Source: a virus
Strand: one strand, 5' to 3'
DNA length: 26,941 bases
IMG/VR virus record: IMGVR_UViG_3300047388_000210
Span: 1-26,941 of that record
This document shows, in pieces, positions 4,232-26,941 of the stretch; within the stretch, counting starts at the first letter, position 1; each line of letters begins with the position of its first letter. Made by a program: the position numbers and the translations under genes. The notes beneath the pieces were generated by a model. It was not told the origin of the DNA, did no database searches, and saw nothing but the letters and a program-made list of their open reading frames with translations.

Positions 4232-4499
4232 CCTGTGGGAACTACTCCTCCAGGCGTGCCACGGGACGCCCGACTGGTACGGCGTTTCCCGTCGGCACTG
4301 GGTGATGGACCTCGGCTGGTACAAGCAGATCCGGCGCTACGCGACGCAGTACCGGCCCGACCCTGAGCCGGATGAGGACAAGTGGGTGCCCGGCCCGGAT
4401 GACACCCTCTTTGGCTACCCGGTCACAGTCTGCGAGGACGGCTGCGAACCTTACCTCGCTGGTGATGGCCAGGGCTGGGGCAGCGAGGTGCGGGCGTGA
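4224..4499 (+). CDS. Small Trp-rich acidic hypothetical protein
   Basis: A 91-aa protein overlapping the previous gene by 8 nt. It is rich in Trp, Tyr and Asp (MDDLWELLLQACHGTPDWYG; DLGWYKQIRRYATQY; PDPEPDEDKW) and contains two nearby Cys (VCEDGCEPY). It is probably a small globular domain. No family is recognised. Confidence 0.55.
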   Translation: MDDLWELLLQACHGTPDWYGVSRRHWVMDLGWYKQIRRYATQYRPDPEPDEDKWVPGPDDTLFGYPVTVCEDGCEPYLAGDGQGWGSEVRA

Positions 4500-4915
4500 G
4501 TGTTGTTGTCGCCATCGCGGCGGCCGCCACCTACATCGTGATCTGGCTTACCGCTGCCCGGCTCCTGTATGGCCGCTGGCGGGCCCGGAGCCTTGACCTG
4601 TGCGCAATCCGCTCGCCAGCCCTCTACGGGGGCAACGCCGCTTACGCCACGTTCCACTGGAACGCGGAGAAGCGCACCCAGGTGACCGGGTGTGCGCTGT
4701 GGGCTGGACTCGCTTGGCCACTGGCGCTGCCTGTCGTATTGGTCATGGTCCCGGCAGTGGCAAGGTTCCTGGCCACTACGCGGGTGCTGTCCCAGGCCGA
4801 GACGCGGGCGCTGGCCGCCCAGCGTGAGCGCCATATAGCTGAACTTGAGCGTGAAGCGGGCATCAGCCAGGACTACGGCGATCACCCAGGCTACCGGCAG
4901 GAGCGGACACTGTGA
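4496..4915 (+). CDS. Small membrane protein with coiled-coil tail
   Basis: A 139-aa protein from the GTGA at 4496. Its first span is VVVAIAAAATYIVIWLTAA. Its second is a longer hydrophobic stretch, CALWAGLAWPLALPVVLVMV and onward. A charged helix follows (AETRALAAQRERHIAELERE), likely a cytoplasmic coiled coil. It is the second membrane protein of this cluster and is coupled to the next gene. Function is unknown. Confidence 0.6.
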   Translation: MSVVVAIAAAATYIVIWLTAARLLYGRWRARSLDLCAIRSPALYGGNAAYATFHWNAEKRTQVTGCALWAGLAWPLALPVVLVMVPAVARFLATTRVLSQAETRALAAQRERHIAELEREAGISQDYGDHPGYRQERTL

Positions 4916-5286
4916 GCGAGCCCAGCCTCTACCCGGACGGCTACCGTGACCCGGAATGGGACGGCAGCGAGAAGGAGTTCCGCGAGATCGTGCTCCCCGC
5001 CCGCGTCGCTGCGATCACGCAAGGGCTGAACGACCGGTTCGCGGACGTGCTGCCCGAGGGGATGCGGTTCGAGCGGGAGCGGCGAGGACGAGGCGCCGTG
5101 AGCGACAGGTACGCGCACGTGCGCCGGCTGGAAGACGACGCTGTCGCGCTCATCGCGGTCGCGCACCGGCAGTGGTGGCGTTTCTGGCTGAACCGCAAGC
5201 GCTACCAGGAAGCCCGCAGGCTGCTCGCTCAAGCCGGGCGCGAGGTAGACCTGATCGCGGCCCGCAACCGCCGCGCCGCCCCGTAA
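4912..5286 (+). CDS. Hypothetical basic helical protein
   Basis: A 124-aa protein from the GTGA at 4912, the last member of the first gene string. The acidic N-terminus (LYPDGYRDPEWDGSEKEF) is followed by long basic helices rich in Arg and Trp (HRQWWRFWLNRKRYQEARRLL). Nucleic-acid or membrane-surface binding is possible. No domain is recognised. About 100 bp without a gene follow, so a transcription boundary may lie here. Confidence 0.55.
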   Translation: MSEPSLYPDGYRDPEWDGSEKEFREIVLPARVAAITQGLNDRFADVLPEGMRFERERRGRGAVSDRYAHVRRLEDDAVALIAVAHRQWWRFWLNRKRYQEARRLLAQAGREVDLIAARNRRAAP

Positions 5287-5343
5287 CCATCCCGTGTTCA
5301 GCGTGTTGTACTTTGTTCACCCCGCCAGGCTGCTGCGGGTGCT

Positions 5344-5349
5344 TATGAT
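5344..5349 (+). promoter_or_regulatory. Candidate -10 before the HAD gene
   Basis: TATGAT at 5344-5349 is one mismatch from TATAAT and sits in the only gap (5287-5391) of this region, about 40 nt before the gene start. The best TTG-type hexamers (5306-5311 and 5313-5318) are too far away for a normal spacer, so the promoter, if real, is -10 driven. Confidence 0.35.
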
Positions 5350-5391
5350 GCAGCATGATCCCCGTTCACGCTGACTCCCGTCTGGGCTGTG

Positions 5392-5928
5392 ATGGCTAAG
5401 CCCGTCGTTCCCGAGCGCGCCGTCCCGGTGCTCTACCTCGACCTCGACGGCACCGTCCGCCAGGGCAAAGATGACCCGCTCGGCCGGTTCGTCAACGGCC
5501 CCGAAGACGTCGTGGTGTTCCCCGAAGCGGTGGAGATGATGCGCCGCTGGAAGGCTGGCGGCGGCCGGATCATCGGCGTCAGCAACCAGGGCGGCGTCGC
5601 GCTCGGCATCGTGTCCTACGACAAGGTCGCCGCCGCGATGGCCGAGACCTACCGGCAGGCCGGCAAGCTTTTCGACAAGATCGCGTTCTGCTGCCACCAC
5701 CCGAACGCTGATCACCCTGAGATGGCCCGGTGCTGGTGCCGCAAGCCATCCCCTGGGCTGATCATCGAGGCCGCGCTGGAGGCCGCCCAGAAGCACGGCG
5801 AGTTCTACCCGCCGTATATGGGCCTGATGGTCGGCGACCAGCCCGAGGATGAGCAGTGCGCCAAACTGGCCGGGCTCGACTTCCAGTGGGCCGCAGACTG
5901 GCGGGCGCAGGCGGCGAGTGATGCCTGA
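5392..5928 (+). CDS. HAD-family phosphatase, GmhB/HisB-like with zinc loop
   Basis: A 178-aa protein read from the ATG at 5392 (a GTG stands directly before it). It has the full HAD set: DLDGT with D17 and D19 (nucleophile and acid), SNQGG with S64, K118 in CRKPSPG, and GDQPED with D149 and D153. Between motifs II and III is CCHHP...CWCRKP, matching the zinc loop of D-glycero-D-manno-heptose 1,7-bisphosphate phosphatases and related histidinol-phosphate phosphatases. The reaction is likely removal of a phosphate from a small sugar-type or nucleotide substrate; a DNA 3'-phosphatase role is a second option. It is the only clearly metabolic enzyme in the early half. Confidence 0.85.
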   Translation: MAKPVVPERAVPVLYLDLDGTVRQGKDDPLGRFVNGPEDVVVFPEAVEMMRRWKAGGGRIIGVSNQGGVALGIVSYDKVAAAMAETYRQAGKLFDKIAFCCHHPNADHPEMARCWCRKPSPGLIIEAALEAAQKHGEFYPPYMGLMVGDQPEDEQCAKLAGLDFQWAADWRAQAASDA

Positions 5929-6151
5929 GGTTCTCCCGCCGCCCCGGAGCCTGCTCTACGTCAGGCCGGTCCCCGCCGAGCAGGGCGGCGGACTGGAGAT
6001 CGCCTGCGACTGCGGCACGGTCACCCAACTGATCATCGAGATCGCGGATGCGCTTGCCGAGACCCGCGAGGGTGCGTTCACCTGCGACGGGTGCTACAGC
6101 GTGCGCTGGTTCACGGTCGGGCCGCTTGGGGAGGCAGCCGATGGCGGATGA
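5921..6151 (+). CDS. Small zinc-ribbon protein
   Basis: A 76-aa protein read from the ATG at 5921, overlapping the HAD gene by 8 nt. Two Cys pairs, CDC in EIACDCGTV and CDGC in FTCDGCYSVRWF, lie about 30 residues apart around a helix (LIIEIADALAETREG). This looks like a zinc-ribbon domain with a strand after each knuckle. No specific role is evident. Confidence 0.6.
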   Translation: MPEVLPPPRSLLYVRPVPAEQGGGLEIACDCGTVTQLIIEIADALAETREGAFTCDGCYSVRWFTVGPLGEAADGG

Positions 6152-6338
6152 GGCCGGGGCCCGGTGCGGCTACTACGAGCGCAACCGGCACTGTCCTGAT
6201 CCAGGCGTTCACCAGGTGCAGTTCGACGGCAAGAAGTACCGCCTCTGCGAGCGCCATGTGCGGCCCGAGTTCCACCCGCCTGACCTGCACAAGAAACTAC
6301 CCGGGCCAGTGAAGCGCGCCGTGAGGAGGCTCCGGTGA
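6141..6338 (+). CDS. Small Cys/His zinc-binding-like protein
   Basis: A 65-aa protein from the ATG at 6141, overlapping the previous gene. The Cys/His order is RCGYYERNRHCPDPGVHQV, then YRLCERHVRPEFHPPDLH. It fits one zinc site made of two Cys and a CxxH. The C-terminus is very basic (KLPGPVKRAVRRLR), suggesting nucleic-acid contact. Confidence 0.6.
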   Translation: MADEAGARCGYYERNRHCPDPGVHQVQFDGKKYRLCERHVRPEFHPPDLHKKLPGPVKRAVRRLR

Positions 6339-6526
6339 GCACCGAAGGCCCTGCTGACCCGTTCGCCCTCATGGCTGAGGGAAGCGCGCAGATCGTCGCC
6401 ATGTGGGCTGGCCTTGTCGCCGCCGGGATGCCGCCCATGGTCGCCGCCGTGTACCTGGGGCAGATGACAGGCGCGATGACAGCGCAGAACAGCAAGCCGG
6501 AGGAGGTACCGCCTGATGGCCGGTGA
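6335..6526 (+). CDS. Small Met/Ala-rich hypothetical protein
   Basis: A 63-aa protein from a GTGA overlap. The central part is helical and moderately hydrophobic (AQIVAMWAGLVAAGMPPMVAAVYLG), possibly peripheral to the membrane. The 3' end carries GGAGGAGGT, the ribosome binding site for the next gene. Confidence 0.55.
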   Translation: MSTEGPADPFALMAEGSAQIVAMWAGLVAAGMPPMVAAVYLGQMTGAMTAQNSKPEEVPPDGR

Positions 6527-8001: not shown

Positions 8002-8151
8002 ATGCCCGTGTGGTTCATCAGCCACTGCCTCGCGGTTCACGGTACCTGCCAGCCGCGGAACTGGGCCGACCTCGGGGAAGTCATCGCCGGGGCCGCGCTG
8101 ATCGCCGCCGCGGCCATCGCGTTCTTCACCGGCCTGTCGGCGCTCGGGTGA
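8002..8151 (+). CDS. 49-aa single-span membrane peptide
   Basis: The reading frame from the ATG at 8002 (a GTG at 7999 is in frame just before it) to the TGA at 8149-8151 gives a 49-aa protein. The N-terminal half, with Cys9 and Cys16, is followed by one hydrophobic span, VIAGAALIAAAAIAFFTGL. The gene fills the gap between the HTH gene and the papain-like hydrolase. Size and position upstream of a cell-wall-hydrolase-like gene suggest a holin-like or anchor role. The ribosome binding site is weak. Confidence 0.5.
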   Translation: MPVWFISHCLAVHGTCQPRNWADLGEVIAGAALIAAAAIAFFTGLSALG

Positions 8152-8165
8152 AACCGGGAGGCACC

Positions 8166-8684
8166 ATGACCGGCCCGTTCATCCTCGGCGAGGAAGTCGG
8201 GGATGGTTCCTACATCTGCCTGCGCACCGGCTCCCCGCTGGGGTTCCTGGTCCGGATGTTCACGGGAAGCCAGTACGATCACACCATCTTGGTCACCGGG
8301 CCCGGTGAGATCATCCAGGCCACCGTCAAGGGCGTGAAAAAGGGCCTCCTGTCCCAGTTCCGCGGCTGCCTGGCCGTGGCCAACACCGCCGAGGAGATGA
8401 CCGCCCTCCAGCGGGTCACCGTCGTCAAGGCGGCCGAGCGCTACGACGGCGACGAGTACGCCTTCGGCGGCATCATCGTCATCGGCCTGCGGAAACTGGG
8501 CCTGCGCTGGGCATGGCTGCTGAAAGCGTCCGCTGACAAGGGTGCCGTGTTCTGCTCCGAGTTGGCCGCCCTCGGCGGGCAGGCAGCGGGCCTGGACTGG
8601 CTCTGCGGCACCGGCGACCCTGCCCTCGTCACCCCGGCCACGCTCGCCGTCCGGCCAGGCGTTCGCCGGATTACTATCACGTGA
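8166..8684 (+). CDS. Permuted papain-like hydrolase (YiiX/NlpC-P60-type)
   Basis: A 172-aa protein; the ATG at 8166 follows GGGAGG. The order of catalytic residues is that of permuted papain-fold amidases: an early His (H39 in QYDHTILV) after a small-barrel strand (GDGSYICLRTG), and a late Cys (C130 in VFCSEL) at the start of a helix. Members of this superfamily cleave peptide or amide bonds, including in peptidoglycan and lipids. Here it could be a lysin, a wall-opening enzyme or an unrelated amidase. No signal peptide is seen. The preceding 49-aa membrane peptide makes a lysis pair possible. Confidence 0.65.
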   Translation: MTGPFILGEEVGDGSYICLRTGSPLGFLVRMFTGSQYDHTILVTGPGEIIQATVKGVKKGLLSQFRGCLAVANTAEEMTALQRVTVVKAAERYDGDEYAFGGIIVIGLRKLGLRWAWLLKASADKGAVFCSELAALGGQAAGLDWLCGTGDPALVTPATLAVRPGVRRITIT

Positions 8685-8692
8685 AGGGCACC

Positions 8693-8966
8693 ATGGCCAC
8701 TGCGCACGCCTTTCCGCGCACCTTCACCGGCCTGCGGCCCAGCCCCCCCGGACGAGTACCGCGACAAGGGCATCACCAACGCCGGGCTCAGCGCCGATTA
8801 CGAGGGGGCCGTCTTCTCGGATGGCACGGTCGTGATCCGGTGGCTCACCGCCTACCGCTCACACAGCGTGTGGGCGTGCTGGGAGGACTTCTATCAGGTC
8901 CACGGGCACCCGGAGTACGGGACCGTGATCAGGTTCCACGATGGCGGCCCGGTGCCGCCCGCCTGA
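8693..8966 (+). pseudogene. Frameshifted FSDGTVVIRW/HGH-type small phage protein
   Basis: From the ATG at 8693 (or the GTG at 8681 overlapping the previous stop) the frame reads MATAHAFPRTFTGLRPSPP and then reaches a C7 run (8743-8749). The natural continuation, DEYRDKGITNAGLSADYEG, then FSDGTVVIRW and VHGHPEYGTVIRFHDGG, lies in the +1 frame and ends at the TGA at 8964-8966. That downstream frame has no start of its own after the stop at 8682-8684. Removing one C restores a 90-aa protein resembling a small protein common in actinophages. The cause may be a sequencing error, a real mutation or programmed frameshifting. Confidence 0.75.
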
Positions 8967-8978
8967 AAGGAGACTGCC

Positions 8979-9551
8979 GTGGAGTACCCGTCCGCCCACA
9001 AGGGCTCCTACCGTGCCAGGCGGCCGAACTCCACCAACCGCCGCACCCGCGCCCAGATCGACAAGGACCACCGCGCCCTGGACCTGTACTGCCAGGGGAA
9101 GAAGAACCGGGAGATCGCCGCGATCATCGGCTGGAAGTCCGACTCCACCGCGATCATGGCCGTCCAGCGGGCGCTGCGGGACCGGCGCGCGGGCGAACTG
9201 GACGCGATCGACAACTTCGCCCTCGCCACCGAGCGGATCCAGCAGGACATCGCCGAACAGCAGAAGATCATCGACACCCCCCACTTCGTGGTGTCCACGA
9301 CCGGCAAACTGGTCATGGACCCGGAGACCGGGGAGCCGATGCTGGACGACGGGCCCAAGGCACGGGCCCTCGACGCCAAAATGAAGCTGTACGACCAGCT
9401 CAACAAGCTCCAGGGCAACTACGCGCCGGCGAAGGTCCGGCAGGAGATCATCGAGCAGTCCACGGTGGACGCCGAGATCGCCCACCTCGCCGAGGAAGTG
9501 AACCGGCTTGCCCAGGAAACCCCTGGTCCAGGCGTCATCCGGGAGCCTTAG
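8979..9551 (+). CDS. Terminase small subunit-like protein
   Basis: A 190-aa protein from the GTG at 8979 with AAGGAG at 8967-8972. Residues about 25-70 (RALDLYCQGKKNREIAAIIG, then a second helix with AVQRALRDRRAG) form an HTH like those of small terminase subunits that recognise the packaging site. A helical oligomerisation region follows. Near the C-terminus, ALDAKMKLYDQLNKLQGNYA resembles the typical xRRxKLLGLxAP segment of these proteins. It lies directly before the large subunit and overlaps it by 44 nt, which supports the call. Confidence 0.75.
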   Translation: MEYPSAHKGSYRARRPNSTNRRTRAQIDKDHRALDLYCQGKKNREIAAIIGWKSDSTAIMAVQRALRDRRAGELDAIDNFALATERIQQDIAEQQKIIDTPHFVVSTTGKLVMDPETGEPMLDDGPKARALDAKMKLYDQLNKLQGNYAPAKVRQEIIEQSTVDAEIAHLAEEVNRLAQETPGPGVIREP

Positions 9552-11211
9552 GGCCCTCACCGAACTCCGGGCGCAGCGGGACGCGCTCGAGGCGCGGAAA
9601 CTCGCCAGCCTGGACGTGTTCGCGCTGATCGGGCATGAGCCGAACTGCCTGCCCCGGCACGCGGCCCGCAAGCGCGTCATGGCCACGCTGGGCGTCACCG
9701 ACATACACGACGCGCGCCTCGCGGAGCCCGGCGTGCTCCCCGGGTTCTGCGGGAAATGCCCGCAAGAGCAATTCCACAACGCCACCGAGGCCGATGTGCT
9801 TTACGGCGGGGCCTCCGGCGGCGGTAAGTCGCACGCCATCACCGCTGAGGGCATCAAGTGGTGCGCCAGGTACCCTGGCCTGCGCGTTCTTCTCGTCAGG
9901 AAGTCTTACGACGAGCTTGAGGAGTCCATTTTCCCCGCGCTGCGGAAGTTCGGTTACGCGCAGGCGCTGGGGTGCAAGTGGAACGGCGTCAAGAACGAGT
10001 TGCGGTTCCCCAACGGGTCCTACTTCCGGTTCCGGTACCTGGAGACCGTGGACGACGCGGCCCGCCGGCAAGGCGGCGAGTACCAGTTGCTCCTGGTGGA
10101 CGAGCTGGCGCTGATGATGCCCGGCGTGGTGGACATCCTGCGCTACGAGCGGCTCCGGTCCGCCGGCGGGCTGCCGGTCATCGGGGTGCGGGCCACCTCC
10201 AACCCCGGCGGCCCCGACCACGGCGGCGTCAAGAAACGGTACGTCGAAGCCACCGAGGACGGCACGAAAGTCGCCACCGACGAGCACGGCCTCACGGTGC
10301 GGTTCATCAAGGCGCGGGCGACCGACAACCCGTGGCTTGACCCGATGCAGCGCAAGCGCCTGGACGCCATCCCCGACCCCAACCGGCGCGCGGCGATGCG
10401 CGACGGCGACTGGGGGACCTTCTCCGGTGCGGTGTTCCCGCAGTTCAGCAAGGAACGGCACACCCTGGACCCGTTCCGGCTGCCGCAGTCGTGGCTGCGG
10501 CACGCCGGGGTGGACTGGGGCTACACGGCCCCGTGGGCCACGTTGTGGCTGGCCCTGGACGAGGACAAGCGGGCCTGGATCTACCGGGAGCTTTACCACC
10601 GGCAGGTCGGCGAGGCCGACCAGGCGAGGATGATCCTGGAAGCCGGGGACGGCGAAAGCGTGGTCTGCTACTGGGCGGATGACGCGATGTTTGCCGTCCG
10701 GGGAGACGCGAAGCCGATCAGCTCCATCTACGCGGAGAACGGCGTCCACCTGACCGCGGCGGGCAAGGGGCCTGGGTCGCGGATCACGGGCCTGCAGCGC
10801 TGGCACTCCTACATGGCCGAAGGGCCGGCCTGCCCGCACCACCGCTCTCTGGGCTGGCAAACCTGCCCGATGGTGCATATCTTCAGCACTTGCCGCAACC
10901 TGATCTCCGAACTGGAGTCGCTGCCCTACGCCACCAAGGGCAACACGGAAGACGCGGACACAAACGCCCCGGACCACGCCTATGACGCGGGAAGGTACAT
11001 CCTTCTCAACCTGGACGGCGGCGCGACGTTCTACGACTCCCCGGATCCGGGCCTCCCTCTCGGCGCCCCGGCCCCGCTGGCCCCCATGGGCCGGTTCGCG
11101 ATCCAGGAGGACGTGGCGGAAGCGCCGCAGCGGGCAGCAGGCAGTGAGCCGAACCCCCGGCAGGGCGCTACGCAGACGTGGGAGGAAGCGCTCGCGTCGA
11201 TGCAGGGCTAG
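9508..11211 (+). CDS. terL: Terminase large subunit
   Basis: A 567-aa protein, the usual size for TerL. The ATPase half has a Walker A-type GGASGGGKS (residues 100-108, K107), Walker B LLLVDE (D198, E199) and a coupling motif ATSNPGG (about 230). The nuclease half shows the RNase H-like acidic residues D336 (GVDWGY), D391/D392 (WADDAM) and D489/D493 (APDHAYDAGRY). It pumps DNA through the portal and cuts it. The TTG at 9508 lies 9 nt after GAGGAAG. No ATG or GTG close to it competes. The last 60 residues are Pro/Ala-rich and probably flexible. Confidence 0.93.
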   Translation: MPRKPLVQASSGSLRALTELRAQRDALEARKLASLDVFALIGHEPNCLPRHAARKRVMATLGVTDIHDARLAEPGVLPGFCGKCPQEQFHNATEADVLYGGASGGGKSHAITAEGIKWCARYPGLRVLLVRKSYDELEESIFPALRKFGYAQALGCKWNGVKNELRFPNGSYFRFRYLETVDDAARRQGGEYQLLLVDELALMMPGVVDILRYERLRSAGGLPVIGVRATSNPGGPDHGGVKKRYVEATEDGTKVATDEHGLTVRFIKARATDNPWLDPMQRKRLDAIPDPNRRAAMRDGDWGTFSGAVFPQFSKERHTLDPFRLPQSWLRHAGVDWGYTAPWATLWLALDEDKRAWIYRELYHRQVGEADQARMILEAGDGESVVCYWADDAMFAVRGDAKPISSIYAENGVHLTAAGKGPGSRITGLQRWHSYMAEGPACPHHRSLGWQTCPMVHIFSTCRNLISELESLPYATKGNTEDADTNAPDHAYDAGRYILLNLDGGATFYDSPDPGLPLGAPAPLAPMGRFAIQEDVAEAPQRAAGSEPNPRQGATQTWEEALASMQG

Positions 11212-11353: not shown

Positions 11354-13693
11354 GTGCCCCTCGCTGATTACCTCCCGTGGAATGTGGCGGAGGCGAAGAA
11401 GCGCAAGCAGGCACCATCAACAGCGCTGGTCCCCGCGACGACTGCCCCGAACCCGGACATCCTGCCGAACCGGACGGGGTTCGTGCAGGGCGTCCCCCGC
11501 GGCGGGTTCGGGGTGGATGCCGCCGAGTCGCAGACCGGCGCGGCGCAGAACACCACCCGGACCGAGTGGCTGCAGGCGCTGTGGGAGGAGTACCTGCGGT
11601 GCCCGTGGGCGTGGGCGTGCGTGAACGTGATCGCAAGGACGGTCACCGCCGGCGGGCTGGGGATGAAGTGGGACGGCGACACCGGCGAGGGCGATGTCAA
11701 GCAGCCCGTCAAGCCCGCCGCGGTGCTGGCGGTGGAGCGGCTGTTCGCCTTCGCCAACCCGGTGCAGGACATCCGCCAGTTGTGCCGCAACATCGTCGCC
11801 GACCTGCAGGTGTTCGGCGGGGCGATGGTGGAGGTCGTGTGGTTCGCCGGAATCCCGGCGGCGCTGTACAACCAGGACTTCCCGACGACCGTCCCGGAGG
11901 CGGACGAGCACGGCAACGTCAAGGGGTACAAGCAGACCACCGAAGACGGCCGCACCGCCAAGTTCCGGGCCGAGCAGATCATCCACATCACCCTCGACTC
12001 CGCCCGGCCGTCCATTTTCGGCATCTCCCCGACCCACGCGGCCGAGGAAAGCATCGTCGCGTGGATGTTCCTGCACGCCTGCGAGAAGGAAGCGGCGAGG
12101 AGGGGCCTGCCGCCGAACATCCACGCGGACCACCCGGCCGGCACCCCCGAAACCGACGTGCAAAGGTGGCAGAACCAGTACGCCACCCGCAACATCGGCC
12201 CGGCGAACATCGGCACGCCGATCGTCACCAAGGGCGGCGGGCATGTCAGCGAACTCCAGCAGACGAAGCTCCCTGACATCCTGCTGGCGAAGAAAGAGGC
12301 CCGCAACGAGATCGTCTCCTCCTACGGTGTCCCGCCGGCGAAGGTGGGGATCATCGAGTCGGGGAACCTCGGCGGCGGCACCGGGAGTGACCAGAACAAG
12401 TCGTTCTGGCTGGACATCATCGCCCCGTCCGCCGCCCTGATCGCCGAGAAACTCCAGTTCGCTATCGCGGTCAAAGGCTTCGGCGTCACCGGCTGGCATG
12501 TCGATTTCGGCGGCGTCGACTACCGCGACGACCAGACCATTGAGAACATCCGCGACATGCGGATGCGCAACGGGTCCTGGACCCGCAACCGGTATGCCGC
12601 CGACATCGGGGAGCCGCCGGTTGAGGGCGGCGACGACGCGGTCCTGGTCGCCCGGCAGGACATCGTGCTGTGGGCGGACATGAAAGCCCGGTCGGCTGCC
12701 TCGGTCGCCGCGCTGGCCCGGCTGGACGCCGTCGACAACCAGGCCGGTGGGCCGCCCCCTGCGGCAGGGACCGGCCGGCCGTCAGGAACCGGCGGGGCAC
12801 GCGATCCCCAGCCGCCGTCCGAGTCCGCAGCCGTCGCCGAGGCGGTGGTGCTGCGGCTGGTGCGCTCCGGCGTGCTCGAGGCCAGGGGCGGCGCGAAGCG
12901 TGCCGCGTACCGGGCGCTCAGGAGTGACTTCCCGCCGGGCGCCGTCGCCTGGGCGAAGGACGCTGACTGGTCCGGGCCGGCGAAAGTGCCGGTGTCCCGA
13001 ATCGACACCTCCAATAAGCAGAACTGGGCCGCCTGGGGCGATGACGCGAACATCAGCCACTTCCGCAAGCAGGTCCGCAAGGGGACGGTGAACCCGGTCA
13101 CGCTGGTCAGGCGGCCGGGCGTCAAGAAACTGCTGATCCCGGACGGGCATCACCGGCTGCTGGCCGCGATGGAGGAAGGCGAGCCGGTCCTCGCCTACAT
13201 CGCCACCGTGGGCACCGTCAAAGGCCCGTGGGACGCGATGCACCGGGCGCAGAGGGCCGGGCCCTCTGAGGCTGCGGAGGCCGTGGCCGAGCACACAGCG
13301 AAGCTGACCGCCCGGCAGCGGGCCTACAACCAGCTCGCCCGCAACTTCGCCGCGAAAGACCTGACCTGGGTGGACGACGCCACCTGGACCGGCCCGGTGA
13401 ACGTCGGCACCGATCAGATCGACTTCGCCGACAAGGACCAGTGGAACGCGCAGGACGACCGGGCGAAGGTGGCCCGGATCAGGAAGCGGATCCGGAAGAC
13501 GGGCGCGATGAAGCCCGCCATCCTCATCCGGGGCCCCGGACATGAGAAGGACGTCATCGCCGACGGCCATCATCATGTCCTCGCCGCGGTCGAGCTTGGG
13601 TTCCCGGTGCGGGCGTACGTGGCCCATGTGAACTCGGCGACGGGCCCCTGGACGACCTTGTCAACCAGGCAGCGCATGGCCCGCGCAGGCTGA
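11354..13693 (+). CDS. HK97-type portal protein with two C-terminal ParB-like domains
   Basis: A 779-aa protein; HK97-type portals are usually 400-500 aa. Residues about 60-480 resemble such a portal: a WACVNVIARTVTAGG helix, a RAEQIIHITLDSARPSIFG strand-loop, and a KKEARNEIVSSYGVPPAKVG segment with a Gly-rich loop after it. After a Pro/Gly linker (about 480-510) come two tandem copies of one domain, about 515-640 and 660-775. Each has W-x-GP, a central IRKG/VRKG-like segment, an R-x-PG turn, and a DGHH motif (D597-GHHR and D737-GHHH, exactly 140 residues apart). This matches the ParB/sulfiredoxin-like domain seen in phage and polymorphic-toxin proteins. In the second copy His replaces the usual Arg. 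Confidence 0.85.
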   Translation: MPLADYLPWNVAEAKKRKQAPSTALVPATTAPNPDILPNRTGFVQGVPRGGFGVDAAESQTGAAQNTTRTEWLQALWEEYLRCPWAWACVNVIARTVTAGGLGMKWDGDTGEGDVKQPVKPAAVLAVERLFAFANPVQDIRQLCRNIVADLQVFGGAMVEVVWFAGIPAALYNQDFPTTVPEADEHGNVKGYKQTTEDGRTAKFRAEQIIHITLDSARPSIFGISPTHAAEESIVAWMFLHACEKEAARRGLPPNIHADHPAGTPETDVQRWQNQYATRNIGPANIGTPIVTKGGGHVSELQQTKLPDILLAKKEARNEIVSSYGVPPAKVGIIESGNLGGGTGSDQNKSFWLDIIAPSAALIAEKLQFAIAVKGFGVTGWHVDFGGVDYRDDQTIENIRDMRMRNGSWTRNRYAADIGEPPVEGGDDAVLVARQDIVLWADMKARSAASVAALARLDAVDNQAGGPPPAAGTGRPSGTGGARDPQPPSESAAVAEAVVLRLVRSGVLEARGGAKRAAYRALRSDFPPGAVAWAKDADWSGPAKVPVSRIDTSNKQNWAAWGDDANISHFRKQVRKGTVNPVTLVRRPGVKKLLIPDGHHRLLAAMEEGEPVLAYIATVGTVKGPWDAMHRAQRAGPSEAAEAVAEHTAKLTARQRAYNQLARNFAAKDLTWVDDATWTGPVNVGTDQIDFADKDQWNAQDDRAKVARIRKRIRKTGAMKPAILIRGPGHEKDVIADGHHHVLAAVELGFPVRAYVAHVNSATGPWTTLSTRQRMARAG

Positions 13694-17443: not shown

Positions 17444-18826
17444 ATGCCTTTCAGCCAGGTTCGTGAAGCACTCACGGCACTCGGCGCCTCGCCATTCGTC
17501 CAAAAGGTCATTGACCCTACTCTGGTCGAATTGCAGCGCCGTTACATGCCCGTTCTGCGTGCAATTCCGACGCAAAGATGGACAACGGATATTTACAATT
17601 TCAACCAAAGGACAACCGTTCCTAGTGGCGGCTACGTCCCCGACGGTGGAGCGCGCACTGTGGCGAATAGCGCCTATGTGCAGCTCTCATTCCAGATGAA
17701 ACACATTCAGACCGTCGGCGCGGTCACCGGCTACGCGCAGGAGGTCGCCAACCTGGTTGACCTGCGGCGCACTGAAATCGCGGGTGCCACCCAGGGGTAT
17801 TATTGGGATGCCGAATGCGGCATCATGTGGGGCAACTCCGCGTCCACGCTGAACCAAGCGCAACCACAATTCGATGGCTTGGACACGCTGGTCAGCGACT
17901 TCACCACCGGCTACAAGAACTGCATCGACTTCACCAACTCGACGCTGACCCCCGGCATGCTCGACCAAATCGCGGACGTCGTGCAGAAGAACGCCAAGGA
18001 GCCGGTGTTCAACTCCCAGTGGATGTGGATCATGTCCACCACGGCGCATTCCCGCCTGGCGCAGCTCACCTCCCCCGGCTACGGCGGCCTGCAGCGGTTC
18101 AGCAACCAGGTCGAGGTCGACGCCGGCCTGATCGTGGACACCTACCGCAACATCCCGATCCTGGACACCTCGTTCCTGTCCGCGTTCGGCTTCTCGATGG
18201 GCGCGGTGACCACGGGCACCGCGACGACCGGCGGCACCCTGGCCAACGCCACCTACTGGTACCGGATCGCGCCCGTGGTGTCCCGCGCCGGAGAGGCCAC
18301 CGCATCCACCGAAGTGTCCCAGGTCGCGGGCGGGTCCAGCACGTCCACGATCACCCTGTCGTTCACCCCGCCCACCGGGTACGACGCCCTCGCCCCCCAG
18401 TTGTACAAGGTCTACCGGTCCACCTCCACCGGCACCGAGACGTTCCTCGGCTACGTGGACTCCACCGTCGGCCTGAGTTCCGATGGCGTGACCCCGATCC
18501 TGACCACGTCCATCATCGACACCGGGTCGGCCCTGGTGCCGCAGAACGGCTCCACGGTGCCCGCCACCCTGCCCACCGCCTACTTCGGCACCAACGCCTC
18601 CATGCTGCCCCCGGCGGCCGGGAGCGAGAACATCTACCTCATCTCCCGCAACCGGCGCAACGTGGTCCGGCCGTATGTCCGCGAAGCGAACATGCTGAAC
18701 GTCTATCCCACCACGTCCAGCCCCGACGCACTTCCGTTTGCGATCATGGGTGACACCTGCTTCGCCGTGAGGGCCAGCAGGTTCGTCGGCCGCGGATGCA
18801 GGATGGCTGTCGCGCTGGTCAACTGA
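17444..18826 (+). CDS. Major capsid protein with Ig/FnIII-like insertion
   Basis: A 460-aa protein from the ATG at 17444, behind GAGAGGAGG with a rather long 11-nt spacer. The N-terminal arm, the FQMKHIQTVGAVTGYAQEVANL segment and the end of the protein (ALPFAIMGDTCFAVRASRF) fit an HK97-fold capsid protein. Between residues about 251 and 373 there is an extra domain, GTLANATYWYRIAPVVSRAG to YKVYRSTSTG and GYVDST, which reads as a fibronectin-III/Ig-like module, probably displayed on the capsid surface. The first part of the gene is notably poorer in GC than the rest (17521-17640: 62 of 120 bases). Confidence 0.8.
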   Translation: MPFSQVREALTALGASPFVQKVIDPTLVELQRRYMPVLRAIPTQRWTTDIYNFNQRTTVPSGGYVPDGGARTVANSAYVQLSFQMKHIQTVGAVTGYAQEVANLVDLRRTEIAGATQGYYWDAECGIMWGNSASTLNQAQPQFDGLDTLVSDFTTGYKNCIDFTNSTLTPGMLDQIADVVQKNAKEPVFNSQWMWIMSTTAHSRLAQLTSPGYGGLQRFSNQVEVDAGLIVDTYRNIPILDTSFLSAFGFSMGAVTTGTATTGGTLANATYWYRIAPVVSRAGEATASTEVSQVAGGSSTSTITLSFTPPTGYDALAPQLYKVYRSTSTGTETFLGYVDSTVGLSSDGVTPILTTSIIDTGSALVPQNGSTVPATLPTAYFGTNASMLPPAAGSENIYLISRNRRNVVRPYVREANMLNVYPTTSSPDALPFAIMGDTCFAVRASRFVGRGCRMAVALVN

Positions 18827-19784: not shown

Positions 19785-20483
19785 GTGCCTGAAGGCGACA
19801 TCCTGGTCCCGCTGTGCACATACGCCCAGTTCACCGAGGGTGCCTACGCCGACCTGGTCGCCGGGTTCTCCCCGGCCGCGGTCAACGACATCCTGGTCGA
19901 GGCGACCCGGCAGTGCGAGGACCAGACGGGGCGGCGGCTGGCGCCGTTCACGGTCACCGAAACCGGCCGGGTCTCAGGCATCGACCCCAGCGAGTACGCC
20001 ACCAGCACCGGCATGCCCGTGTCCATCCAGGGCACCCTGGGCATGTCCGAAGCGGCGGCCCTGTCGGTGACGAACCTGGTGCGCCACCACTGGCTGCGGG
20101 AGTTCCCGCCCCGCTACCAGGATCTGTGGGCGTACTCGGGCGTCACGGTGAAGATCCTTCGCTCATTCGGCGGCTCCCAGACTCTTGGCACCGGGCAGAT
20201 CCTGTCCGGCCCCGACGACCTGGGGCACATCTGGTTCACCCTCGGCCAGTTCATCCCGGTCGCGTCCTACGCCCAGATCACCTACTCCGGCGGGTACACC
20301 GTGGCCACGCCGGCGTCGCTGCTGCGGGCGTCCAAGTTCCTCGCCGCGTCGATCGCGATTGACGAGCTGAACCCTGAGGACAACGAGCGCGACCCGGACC
20401 GGCTGTACAACCTGGCGCTGCGGTGGCTGGCCCCGTACGCCCGGGAAGGGTCACCCCTGGCCGGGGTGAGGGCGCGGGCATGA
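19785..20483 (+). CDS. Head-tail connector (adaptor) protein
   Basis: A 232-aa protein from the GTG at 19785 behind GGGGAGG. The sequence follows the pattern of gp6/gp15-type adaptors that bind under the portal: an early helix ending in a Cys/Asp turn (ATRQCEDQTGRRLAPFTVTE), a central strand-rich region, and a C-terminal helical bundle (ASKFLAASIAIDELNPEDNE, LYNLALRWLAPY). Position two genes after the capsid agrees. The match is by pattern, so connector is likely but not certain. Confidence 0.65.
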   Translation: MPEGDILVPLCTYAQFTEGAYADLVAGFSPAAVNDILVEATRQCEDQTGRRLAPFTVTETGRVSGIDPSEYATSTGMPVSIQGTLGMSEAAALSVTNLVRHHWLREFPPRYQDLWAYSGVTVKILRSFGGSQTLGTGQILSGPDDLGHIWFTLGQFIPVASYAQITYSGGYTVATPASLLRASKFLAASIAIDELNPEDNERDPDRLYNLALRWLAPYAREGSPLAGVRARA

Positions 20484-20689
20484 GCACCCGCTGCCCGCGC
20501 TGCCTGGATGACGGCATCGTCTGCGAAGAGCACCCCGAATATCCGTGGGACATGACGGTCGAAGGTCACCCGGCCGACTGCGGGCCACCCGGCATACCGT
20601 GCCCAGCGTGCTGCTCGCCGATCCCGGAAGACGGCACGCATTCCATTGCTGAGGCGTTCACGCCGGACTGGCAGCGGGCGCGGGCGTGA
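20480..20689 (+). CDS. Zinc-ribbon small phage protein
   Basis: A 69-aa protein from the ATGA overlap at 20480. CPRCLDDGIVCEEHPEYPW and a later CGPPGIPCPACC give the CxxC...CxxH...C...CxxC pattern of a small protein common in tailed phages. It probably binds one or two zinc ions. Function is unknown. A secreted-enzyme gene follows immediately. Confidence 0.65.
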   Translation: MSTRCPRCLDDGIVCEEHPEYPWDMTVEGHPADCGPPGIPCPACCSPIPEDGTHSIAEAFTPDWQRARA

Positions 20690-20715
20690 GCACCGCTGAC
20701 AAGGAAGGGACGCCC

Positions 20716-22206
20716 ATGAGGCATCAGTTCAAGGCCCTTGTCGTGGCCGCCGCCGCCGTTGCGGCCCTCTCCCTGCTCGCCGTCCCCGCGATGGCAGGTT
20801 CCCCCGCGCACCAGCACGCGCTCTCCAACGGCAGCGCGCCGCTGACCCCCACCTCCGGACTCGTCGGCCTCAAGGACCCCGTGTACACGGTGACGAACGC
20901 TGCAGGTGGCGGCGATGCACTCACCGTCGCCGGCGCGAGGAGCCTGTTCGTCAACAGCGGGGCTAACGTCATCAGCTACGGCGCACCCGACTGCTTCACG
21001 GGCAACACGTGCGGTGACCCGCAGACTAGCTCTTGTGCTACGAATGCGGCCACTGGCTGTCACAACGGGACGGTCAGCCAGGCCAACTTCGAGACACAGC
21101 TTGGGACCATCCTTAAAAGCAGCGCCAACAGCGGCCTGGGGGACCCGAGTATCGTTCTCCAGTTGTTCCCCGTCAATTTCAGCAACGGGACGTGCCCTCC
21201 CGGCACCGCTACGATCTGTGGTTCCAGCTTCTGCCCGACGCTCACCACTCAAGGTGCCGCGAGCCCGTCTTCCACGGAGTGGGGCCTGGACCTGGCGGCG
21301 GACAAGACGATCGTGGACTCGCTCGCTGCCGCGGTGAGCACGACTGGGGTGTCGCCGGCGTACGTGTTCTTGGAGTCGTCCAACGAGGGCGAGAACCAGT
21401 GCTGGTCCAAGTGGGGCTACACCAGCACGGTGCAGACTGGAGTGTCCAAGGCCCTCGGGCACATGTATGCGGCGGTGATGACGGGCACTGGCGGGCTCCT
21501 CACCTATGCCGCTAACGCCCTGCCCGGCTCCGGCGTTGCCGCTGACGGGTACATCGGCACCGCCGGCGGCATCCTCCGGGGCGATTCGTGCGTGACCAAC
21601 GTCAACTTCAGCTACGGCTACAAGTGCACTTTCACCAAGGCGTCTGCGCAGGTGGCCGACTTCAACAACGCGATCAAGACCGACGCAGGCAGCTCTGCGT
21701 ACCCCGGCCTGGAATCCATCCACTCCTACTGCCACAGCCCCGACTTCACCACGACGTCCGGCTACACGCTCGACAACAACGAGTGCTACGCCTACTACAA
21801 CCAGTGGCGGACAATGGCGGCGGGCCAGATCAACACCATCTGGGGTTCCACCGCGGTGAGCCTGATGGGCTTCGGCGTAACCGAGTGGCAGGCCGGGGTG
21901 TGCGGCTCCACCAACGCCACCTGCTGGAGCGGCTTCCAGAACGGCGCGAGCAACGGCACGGCCACGTACGACAGCGGCTTCTGGACAATGCTCACCGGCA
22001 ACAGCACCTTTTTCGGCACCACGGGCACGGCATACTTCCTCCAGGTGCAGTTCGATGATGCCGGGAACGCTGACGGCCAGGGTCTTCCTGGCGCGCCAGA
22101 CAACAACGCGCACCCCTCAGGCAACTACAACGTGATCCAGGAGGCCGGAACAAAGGGGGAGGGTTACACGGCCTTCTGCAATGCCGGAGCAGGAACTGGC
22201 TGCTAG
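20716..22206 (+). CDS. Secreted glycoside-hydrolase-like protein (clan GH-A pattern)
   Basis: A 496-aa protein read from the ATG at 20716 behind AAGGAAGGGA; a GTG at 20686 is the alternative. Residues 1-27 are a clear Sec signal peptide: basic MRHQFK, a hydrophobic stretch of Ala/Val/Leu, and AMA as cleavage site. The mature part has 16 Cys, likely disulfide-bonded. VFLESSNEGE with N223-E224 and GFGVTEWQ with E390 fit the acid/base and nucleophile of TIM-barrel GH-A glycosidases, and IHSYCH lies between them. A substrate cannot be read. An exported enzyme is unusual among connector and tail genes. Confidence 0.6.
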   Translation: MRHQFKALVVAAAAVAALSLLAVPAMAGSPAHQHALSNGSAPLTPTSGLVGLKDPVYTVTNAAGGGDALTVAGARSLFVNSGANVISYGAPDCFTGNTCGDPQTSSCATNAATGCHNGTVSQANFETQLGTILKSSANSGLGDPSIVLQLFPVNFSNGTCPPGTATICGSSFCPTLTTQGAASPSSTEWGLDLAADKTIVDSLAAAVSTTGVSPAYVFLESSNEGENQCWSKWGYTSTVQTGVSKALGHMYAAVMTGTGGLLTYAANALPGSGVAADGYIGTAGGILRGDSCVTNVNFSYGYKCTFTKASAQVADFNNAIKTDAGSSAYPGLESIHSYCHSPDFTTTSGYTLDNNECYAYYNQWRTMAAGQINTIWGSTAVSLMGFGVTEWQAGVCGSTNATCWSGFQNGASNGTATYDSGFWTMLTGNSTFFGTTGTAYFLQVQFDDAGNADGQGLPGAPDNNAHPSGNYNVIQEAGTKGEGYTAFCNAGAGTGC

Positions 22207-23885: not shown

Positions 23886-24350
23886 ATGGCTGAGCACCTG
23901 TACGAGGGCGGATTCACCTTCACCACTGGCGCTGCCGCCGCATCGTTCGGCGAGATCATCGCCGCCGCCATCGCCGCCGGGAAGCGGCTGCCCGAGATCC
24001 GTGAGATCGGGATCTTCAACCAGTCCGGTGTCGCCGCCGAGATCGGGGTTGGCCGCCCGGCCGCCGTTGGCATCACGCCCGCGACGCTGACCACCGTGCA
24101 GGCGCTGCACGCGGCCGACGTGATCGCCGGGAACACGACGATCGCCAAGACCTGGGGCACCGCGCCGACCGCGCCGACCAACTTCATGCGCCGCGCCGAG
24201 CTGCAGGGCGTGGTCGGTGCCGGGATCATCTGGACCTGGGGCCAGGGCGAGTTCGCCCTGTGGTCCGCCTCGGCGATCGGCACGATCGTCCTCTGGCAGA
24301 TCAGCGCGCTCGCGGTTACTTACGACTGCTACGTCAAAGTAGCGGAATGA
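23886..24350 (+). CDS. Virion structural protein
   Basis: A 154-aa protein from the ATG at 23886. The segments REIGIFNQSGVAAEIGVGRP, AKTWGTAPTAPTNFMRRAEL and GAGIIWTWGQGEFAL belong to a recurrent small phage structural protein with a beta-sandwich-like sequence. Its place beside another structural gene supports a virion role; the exact site is unknown. Confidence 0.6.
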   Translation: MAEHLYEGGFTFTTGAAAASFGEIIAAAIAAGKRLPEIREIGIFNQSGVAAEIGVGRPAAVGITPATLTTVQALHAADVIAGNTTIAKTWGTAPTAPTNFMRRAELQGVVGAGIIWTWGQGEFALWSASAIGTIVLWQISALAVTYDCYVKVAE

Positions 24351-24579: not shown

Positions 24580-26941
24580 ATGGGGAGCCTCTCCAACACC
24601 GTTGACGGCACCAGCGGGACCGCGATCAGCAACGCCAACTCCGCTGGCCCCAACCAGTTCAACACGGTCTCAGTCACCGGCACCGGCACCACCCTCACCT
24701 ACGACACCGCCCACGTCCACGCGGGCAGCACCGCAGCCAAGTTCAGCCTGGCCGCGATCTCCTCCACCGCGTACCTCGACTGGTCGGCGCTGCCCACCAC
24801 GCCATCGGCGAATGTTTACGTCCGGTTCTACGCCTACCTGACGGCGCTGCCGTCAGCGAACACTGTGCTGGCGAAGTTCCTCAACGGGGCCGCCGTCGAG
24901 TCTTCGATCCAGTTGCAGACGACGGGCATCGTCCGCACCCTTAACAACGCCGGTGGCACGCTGGGGTCGCTGACCGAGTCGTTCCCGCTGAACCAGTGGG
25001 TGCGGGTCGAGTTCGAGGTCACCGGCATTACGACTACCACCTCGACAACGGTGGCGTGCCGGATCTTCTCCGGCGCCAACCTGGAGACCAGCACCCCGGA
25101 CACCGGCGGGTCGGTCTCCACCGCGGGCACCAGCCTGTCCGGCACGGTCACCGACCTGCGCGTCGGCACCTCGTCGGCGGTGGTGGAGACCAGCACATTC
25201 ACCTACTGGCTCGATGACATCGCTTACAGCGATGTCGCCACTCCCGGCCCGCAAGCACTGGCGCTTGTGCGGGCCGCGCCGCTGCCGCTGCCGCCGGCAG
25301 TGCCCGTGCAGCAGCCCCGTATTGTCGGCGTCCCGGCCGGGGCGTTCACCGCCGTGGCGGCCCTGTCCGGCTCCGGCACCCTCACCGCGTCGCCGGTGTT
25401 CGCTGGGACCGCCGCCCTGACCGGCACGGGCACGCTGACAGTGGCCGCGCCCGGAATCGCCGGGCTGCCGGTCACCCAGGCAGTGGCACAGCCGCCCCGC
25501 CCTGCCCCGCCGCCGCCCGGGCAGATCATCGGGCCGGCTGTGCTGGCGGTCGCCGGTGCTGCATCGCTCACCGGTTCCGGCACCCTGACCGCGAGCCCCG
25601 TGTTCGCCGGCTCTGCGGCCCTGACCGGTTCGGGCACACTGACCGCCGCGCCAAGCGTGGGCGGCCCGATCGGCGCCATCCAGGCGGTTCGCGCCCAGCC
25701 TGGGCCCGCCCAGCCACCCCCGCCGCAGATCATCGGCAGCACGCCCCCCGCCCCGCCGGGCACCGCCGCCCTGTCGGGCTCGGGCACGCTGACGGCGGCC
25801 CCGGTATTCACCGGCACGGCCACCCTGACGGGCTCCGGCACCCTGACGGCAGCCCCCGCCTTCACTGCCACCGCCGCCCTGTCCGGGACCGGCACGCTAT
25901 CGGCCGCACCCGTGTTCGCTGCCGCGGCCGCCCTGTCCGGCTCGGGCACCTTGGCCGCCGCGCCCGTCTTCACCGCCGCCGCCACCCTGTCCGGTTCCGG
26001 CACGCTCACCGCCGTCTCCACGGTCACGGCCCCAGTGCCGTCGGTGATCATCCAGGCTCCCGCCGCGCCACGCGCCCCGCCACCGCCACCGTCGCCGCAG
26101 ATCATCCCAGCGGTGCAGAACCAGTTGTTCGTCGTCGTCGTCGCCGACATGCAGCCCGGAGGGGGCGTCAACCCGCCGCCTTCGGTGGTCGGCGCCCAGG
26201 TCGCCGGGCTGAACCCCGCGCCCGACCTGGTGCTGATGCCCGGCGACCTGGCCAACGACGGCACCACCGCCCAGTACGGCTTCTTCAACACCATGTACGG
26301 GAGCCTGCTGTCCAGGATTTTCCCCGTCCCGGGCAACCACGACTGGGTGCCAGGGAACCTGACCCAGTACGACACGTACTTCGGCAGCCAGGACTCCCCG
26401 CCGCATTACTTCAGCTTCAACACCGCCAACGGCTGGCACATCATCGGCCTGGAGTCCGACGCCGCCGCCGTGGGCGCGCCGAACATCGGCACCACCCAGT
26501 ACAACTGGCTCGCCGCCGACCTGGCCGCGAACCGGGGCAAGCCGATTCTCGCGTTCTGGCATCACCCGCGCTGGTCTGACGGCACCAACGCCGCCGACCC
26601 GGGCGGCACCAACGACTCGGTCGTCATGCGCGACCCGTGGAACCTGCTCCGGGCATACGCTGCCGACCTGGTGATGGTCGGGCACTGCCACTCCTACCAG
26701 CGGTTCCCGAAATGGGATGCTAACGCCAGCGCCGACCCGCTGGGCATCGCCGAGTTCGTCGTCGGCACCGGCGGTTCCGGGCTGTTCACGCTGAACTCGA
26801 CGCAGCGGTCGGTGGTGAACTCCTACCAGGCCGCTGCGTATGACCAGCTCAACAGCCAGTGGTTCGGCTACCTGAAACTGTGGCTGACCGAGTCGTCGTA
26901 CTCGTGGCAGTTCATCTCCCAGAACGCCGCCGGCAGCCAGA
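24580..26941 (+). CDS. Modular virion-type protein: lectin-like, 18-aa repeats, metallophosphoesterase (3' end missing)
   Basis: Open from the ATG at 24580 to the end of the window (787 codons). Residues 1-213 read as a LamG/concanavalin-like jelly roll ending in YWLDDIAYSD. Residues about 215-510 alternate Pro-rich linkers with nine 18-residue repeats of the GSGTLTAAPVF type. Residues about 515-787 are a calcineurin-like/purple-acid-phosphatase-type metallophosphoesterase: D523 (ADMQ), D556 (GDLAND), N586-H587 (GNHD), H661/H662 (WHHP) and H702/H704 (GHCHSYQR). The first motif is DMQ, not DxH. It probably acts on a phosphoester in the host envelope, as a tail or fiber enzyme; this is inferred. 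No signal peptide is seen. Confidence 0.8.
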   Translation, partial: MGSLSNTVDGTSGTAISNANSAGPNQFNTVSVTGTGTTLTYDTAHVHAGSTAAKFSLAAISSTAYLDWSALPTTPSANVYVRFYAYLTALPSANTVLAKFLNGAAVESSIQLQTTGIVRTLNNAGGTLGSLTESFPLNQWVRVEFEVTGITTTTSTTVACRIFSGANLETSTPDTGGSVSTAGTSLSGTVTDLRVGTSSAVVETSTFTYWLDDIAYSDVATPGPQALALVRAAPLPLPPAVPVQQPRIVGVPAGAFTAVAALSGSGTLTASPVFAGTAALTGTGTLTVAAPGIAGLPVTQAVAQPPRPAPPPPGQIIGPAVLAVAGAASLTGSGTLTASPVFAGSAALTGSGTLTAAPSVGGPIGAIQAVRAQPGPAQPPPPQIIGSTPPAPPGTAALSGSGTLTAAPVFTGTATLTGSGTLTAAPAFTATAALSGTGTLSAAPVFAAAAALSGSGTLAAAPVFTAAATLSGSGTLTAVSTVTAPVPSVIIQAPAAPRAPPPPPSPQIIPAVQNQLFVVVVADMQPGGGVNPPPSVVGAQVAGLNPAPDLVLMPGDLANDGTTAQYGFFNTMYGSLLSRIFPVPGNHDWVPGNLTQYDTYFGSQDSPPHYFSFNTANGWHIIGLESDAAAVGAPNIGTTQYNWLAADLAANRGKPILAFWHHPRWSDGTNAADPGGTNDSVVMRDPWNLLRAYAADLVMVGHCHSYQRFPKWDANASADPLGIAEFVVGTGGSGLFTLNSTQRSVVNSYQAAAYDQLNSQWFGYLKLWLTESSYSWQFISQNAAGSQ
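25357..26034 (+). repeat. Nine 54-bp repeats in a 204-bp higher-order array
   Basis: Copies of an 18-codon unit (consensus near AALSGSGTLTAAPVFTGT) lie at 25357-25464 (two), 25561-25668 (two) and 25765-26034 (five). The intervening linkers are both exactly 96 bp, so pairs recur every 204 bp. The linkers share QAV...QPP...PPP and QIIG-type ends. Copies differ at synonymous positions, so this is an old or selected array and not a recent slip. Confidence 0.85.

Follow-up and report, generated by a model that had tools for sequence, protein, structure and literature searches.

The last gene of this phage fragment raises two questions: what a phage would do with a phosphoesterase mounted on a long repeat stalk, and where in the particle such a protein would be placed. 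The window, by which the whole stretch of DNA analysed is meant, is the IMG/VR record IMGVR_UViG_3300047388_000210, a linear fragment of 26,941 bases from an uncultured tailed phage. A sequence-only reading of the window had described the product as a candidate envelope-degrading tail protein, in which a LamG-like, presumably sugar-binding domain, a Pro-rich stalk with 18-residue repeats and a metallophosphoesterase (MPE) with nearly all metal-binding motifs are joined in one frame. The features that bear on this description are listed in Table 1; the loci used for comparison carry L numbers.

Table 1. Features of the phosphoesterase gene and its surroundings (positions in the window).
Feature	Position	Strand	Remarks	Evidence
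Major head protein	17444..18826	+		phrog_752, E 6e-31
Head-tail adaptor	19785..20483	+		phrog_442, E 1.7e-5
Companion gene	23886..24350	+	154 aa; also 5' of the MPE gene in L004 and L005	81% (L004) and 56% (L005) identity
Whole gene	24580..26940	+	N-terminal domain, repeat stalk and MPE; 787 aa, 3'-truncated	open frame, PF00149
N-terminal conserved phage domain	24580..25254	+	residues 1-225	conserved in 11 other phage loci
Pro/Ala-rich stalk	25255..26127	+	residues 226-516; PPPP(G)QIIG linkers	translation, autocorrelation
18-residue repeats, block 1	25360..25467	+	residues 261-296	
18-residue repeats, block 2	25564..25671	+	residues 329-364	
18-residue repeats, block 3	25768..26037	+	residues 397-486	
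MPE domain	26128..26940	+	residues 517-787; C-terminus truncated	PF00149, alignment with phage relatives
Motif I	26137..26154	+	VVADMQ (D-x-Q)	
Motif V	26680..26703	+	GHCHSYQR	invariant in six phage members

Domain architecture

The three parts do lie in a single frame, which starts with ATG a short way after an AGGGAG sequence and is still open at the contig end, so that the gene is cut. Past the cut point the proteins of relatives run on with ILDSGGPV..., and those of L006 and L002 contain further repeats there. The repeat stalk was likewise borne out: its self-match at a lag of 18 residues was 0.341, compared with 0.128 ± 0.019 (maximum 0.190) in 2000 shuffles. At a lag of 68 the self-match was 0.372, and the starts of the three repeat blocks are spaced 68 residues apart. 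A 54-bp tandem repeat is present in the DNA at 25761-26014.

Judged by its conservation, the N-terminal region is a genuine domain of phages, about 220 residues long and 27-53% identical among relatives from uncultured phages. It was also found in 2 of 396 Actinomycetota genomes, once in a prophage (L108/L120) and once on a short contig whose gene looks cellular (L109). Its identity as LamG was not upheld: none of the 12 family members had a Pfam LamG match, comparison with an alignment of Laminin_G_3 (PF13385) built here gave an hhalign probability of 0.2%, and a PDB profile search with the domain returned no match. LamG was therefore rejected at the profile level, which leaves the lectin part of the sequence-only reading unproven, together with the sugar binding that rested on it. 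Weak matches to the Cip1-like family PF21340 were obtained for 2 of the 12 members (best E 0.002), which makes a jelly-roll fold possible; a control search for PF21340 gave no match anywhere.

The phosphoesterase domain

Pfam places the calcineurin-like family PF00149 at residues 545-706 (E 6e-11), and all five motifs of the MPE superfamily pattern as given in PMC4334965 (D-x-[H/X], GD, GNH[D/E], H, GHxH) are present: ADMQ at 522-525 (Asp523 and Gln525), GD at 555-556, GNHD at 585-588, HHP at 661-663 and GHCH at 701-704. Motif I takes the form of a D-x-Q variant. The same variant occurs in ADPRibase-Mn, an active enzyme with a D[V/I]Q first motif in which the side-chain carbonyl of the Gln was modelled as coordinating metal 1 (PMC4334965). 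Motif I of the window protein is thus of a kind that can bind metal, and because D-x-Q is known from active enzymes, the window MPE is probably active as well. ADPRibase-Mn belongs to a separate MPE family, and it was not among the matches of the window MPE in PDB sequence searches. The best PDB matches were purple acid phosphatases (PAPs) and one GpdQ-type phosphohydrolase.

By sequence, the closest known enzymes are the PAP-like MPEs of bacteria and plants (PF00149; PDB 6gja, 6git and 1kbp), which share with the window MPE the GD, GNHD, HHP and GHxHxYxR-like motifs. The phage enzymes differ from them in two motifs. In all four phage members that cover these positions, motif I is D-x-Q and is followed by GDxxN, whereas among 91 other sequences motif I is D-x-A/S/G/V and GDxxY occurs in 88. 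The tyrosine of GDxxY, which gives purple acid phosphatases their Fe(III) charge transfer, is thus replaced by Asn, and membership in that group was rejected. Nor is the window protein of the PhoD type, as it had no PF09423 match.

These departures from the nearest cellular relatives, namely the altered motif I and the lost tyrosine, would be compatible with a catalytically dead MPE fold retained for binding alone. We consider this very improbable, since the metal ligands are kept throughout the phage clade wherever they can be read and D-x-Q enzymes are active (PMC4334965).

Phage clade and cellular relatives

The MPE domain is 58-76% identical in the phage contigs L002, L003 (a near-copy of L002), L004, L005, L006 (partial) and L008 (partial). 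These sequences form one clade with an SH-aLRT value of 96, which rose to 100 once long branches were removed; the final tree was rebuilt without the rows behind the long-branch artefact of the first, and it omits the sequences that a profile had retrieved from 396 Actinomycetota genomes, with a best E value of 5e-49. Bacterial homologues (32-41% identity) fall outside the phage clade, as do the cellular-type MPEs of L009 and L011. The homologues are therefore not all cellular secreted phosphatases, and the gene is best described as a phage gene with phage-specific homologues.

Most of the cellular proteins closest to the phage clade are secreted enzymes of the PAP-like kind, and most carry signal peptides. 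By a crude hydrophobicity rule, a signal-peptide-like start was found in none of four phage members versus 58 of 80 cellular ones, the cellular set having been picked by WHHPR-like and GHCHSYQR patterns, so that closer relatives lacking both could be missed. That a phage phosphatase might be secreted to free phosphate from organic matter for the infected cell or in the lysate is suggested by this cellular kinship, by a signal peptide on the form encoded in L010 and by a reported link between soil phages and phosphorus metabolism (PMC8822697). For the window protein such an auxiliary role is unlikely, given its start without signal-peptide character, its long stalk and the position of its gene in the structural region.

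The same missing signal peptide would be compatible with an enzyme that stays inside the cell and acts on nucleic acid or nucleotides as a counter-defence. A precedent is mycobacteriophage Gp48, an MPE that has the five motifs, acts as a phosphodiesterase and damages host DNA (PMC12287305). Gp48, however, is an early, intracellular protein for which no stalk is known, while the window gene lies in the structural region and is fused to a stalk and a domain common to surface-type proteins of phages. An intracellular role hence appears remote. That the gene encodes a phage-specific phosphoesterase on a stalk, probably active, is well supported.

Gene order and possible location in the particle

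Terminase, portal, head maturation protease, major head protein and head-tail adaptor genes lie 5' of the MPE gene in the window. In several relatives the corresponding cassette lies between the gene of the major capsid protein and that of the head-tail adaptor. The MPE of L004 and L005 has a gene to itself, and a protein with the N-terminal domain and repeats is encoded further on, followed by the adaptor (phrog_442 in L004, with a 63% identical counterpart in L005). In L002, by comparison, N-terminal domain, MPE and repeats form one protein, encoded 5' of the major head protein gene and of a gene judged by eye to be prohead-protease-like, and in L006 window-type repeats are attached to the C-terminus of the MPE. 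This pattern of split and fused forms suggests that the MPE, the N-terminal domain and the repeats work together.

For the designation as a tail protein, gene order gives a mixed picture. As a narrower form of a virion surface enzyme, in line with the sequence-only reading, the protein could be a receptor-binding fibre at the tail tip whose MPE clips the receptor polymer. Consistent with this, the 154-aa companion gene of L158 follows the tape measure and Dit genes, and in the prophage L120 the N-terminal domain and repeats are encoded at the tail tip, after the tape measure and minor tail genes. A functional parallel exists in the glycerophosphodiester phosphodiesterases (GDPDs), an enzyme family other than the MPEs, with a TIM-barrel fold. 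Like the window MPE, the GDPDs found in the tail modules of enterococcal phages are phage-encoded and belong to the structural region; the presumed substrate of these phosphodiesterases is teichoic acid (PMC10194240). Against the tail tip, the MPE gene lies 5' of the head-tail adaptor in L004, L005 and L006. The genes after it in L006 encode an adaptor relative, the tail tube and the tape measure, beyond which comes a separate cassette for the tail tip; tape-measure and tail-tip genes are thus at a clear distance from the MPE. We therefore regard the tail-tip fibre as rather doubtful. Since companion or domain-repeat genes are found in both head and tail-tip regions, the cassette can occupy either, and gene order leans towards the head or neck in most MPE-bearing relatives. 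Gene position alone is no proof of location in the virion.

The reading that we favour, with moderate confidence, is a modular virion-associated surface enzyme, that is, an MPE carried on a stalk and encoded in an exchangeable cassette. Because the protein has no secretion signal and its slot is shared with polymer-cutting enzymes, it is probably an enzyme of the virus particle that acts at the host surface, and association with the virion is likely. The N-terminal domain and repeat stalk would attach the protein to the particle or hold it off the particle, and the C-terminal part would act as a two-metal phosphoesterase. The bond it hydrolyses would be a phosphate ester, most likely one within a polymer that coats or surrounds the host cell, and the phage would thereby be helped to reach its receptor. 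Location in the virion, catalytic activity, substrate and this role in adsorption are what we infer. Envelope degradation, which had been proposed with teichoic acids, phosphoglycans or polyphosphate as targets, may be the outcome, with teichoic acid as just one of several guesses.

An exchangeable slot for probable surface enzymes

Phage structural-region proteins with MPE domains were known already, and the window protein is a variant of these; the most interesting aspect of the locus is the slot in which the gene lies. The MPE gene belongs to an exchangeable late-structural cassette, in which relatives carry other polymer-active enzymes. In L150 a gene with FN3 and GH16 domains (8471-9580) takes the place of the MPE directly after a companion 84% identical to the window-type 154-aa protein, and the cassette of L004 additionally contains a polysaccharide deacetylase. 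The viral contig L010 encodes, near genes resembling head genes, a protein with a signal peptide, a GH99 domain and a cellular-type MPE (4438-6522). Different repeat proteins are encoded in the same region, 5' of the phrog_442 adaptor, in L155, L157 and L160, and the repeat proteins of L096 and L101 have parts that appear by eye to be beta-helix-like and glycosidase-like (no Pfam match).

A tentative extension is that high-GC uncultured phages have, between capsid and head-tail adaptor, an exchangeable slot for polymer-cutting arms of the head or neck, into which phosphoesterases, glycosidases, deacetylases and beta-helix modules may be swapped onto or beside repeat stalks. Such arms would be distinct from tail-tip depolymerases, and the window MPE would be the arm that cuts phosphate esters.

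A comparable arrangement is found in the cultured Microbacterium phages Rowlf (gp26, L145 18355-20409) and Phinky (gp36, L148 9001-11061), where, as in the cassette of the relatives, an MPE with extra domains is encoded between the major capsid and head-to-tail adaptor genes, adjoining the latter on its 5' side. Rowlf gp26 was called purple-acid-phosphatase-like by its authors, who assigned no function (PMC12352085). Both proteins belong to the PhoD family (PF09423), and neither is meaningfully similar in sequence to the window protein (BLASTP against Rowlf gp26, E 1.6). The same type of location is thus occupied by two different MPE families. The family of gp26 and gp36 was detected by tblastn in 65 phage records; these two proteins carry the annotations 'purple acid phosphatase' or 'hypothetical protein'.

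Should the cassette be carried on the virion, phosphate-ester hydrolysis of the MPE type would join glycan depolymerases and GDPDs among the means by which phages open a way to the cell. The slot offers a starting point in the search for more such enzymes at the surface, and through it the 'purple acid phosphatase' genes of cultured Microbacterium phages, so far unassigned, can be put directly to the test.

Database searches and other genes

No match was found among 50,697 phage records by tblastn with the whole protein, the N-terminal domain or the L006 repeats, and in the phage-record search neither megablast of 17 kb of the window nor tblastn with an Actinomadura homologue gave a match. As a guide to the host, the terminase of the window gave mixed matches.

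Between the head-tail adaptor and MPE genes of the window, a 506-aa protein (20686-22206, + strand) is encoded that has a signal-peptide-like N-terminus and, by eye, the glycosidase-like motifs ESSNEGE and VTEWQ; no Pfam or PHROG match above chance was obtained for it. Genes that appear by eye to be glycosyltransferase-like were seen in the capsid-to-adaptor region of the related phages L004 (7608-8261), L095 (3886-5730) and L157 (4322-4966). Elsewhere in the window, a 224-aa protein (8010-8684, + strand) matched phrog_1128, which carries an enoyl-CoA hydratase-like label (E 2.4e-12). The 779-aa portal protein (11354-13693, + strand) had, in its C-terminal part, a match to the ParB-like phrog_1033 (E 2e-7) and weak matches to DNA methyltransferase profiles, and it is possibly a portal fusion.
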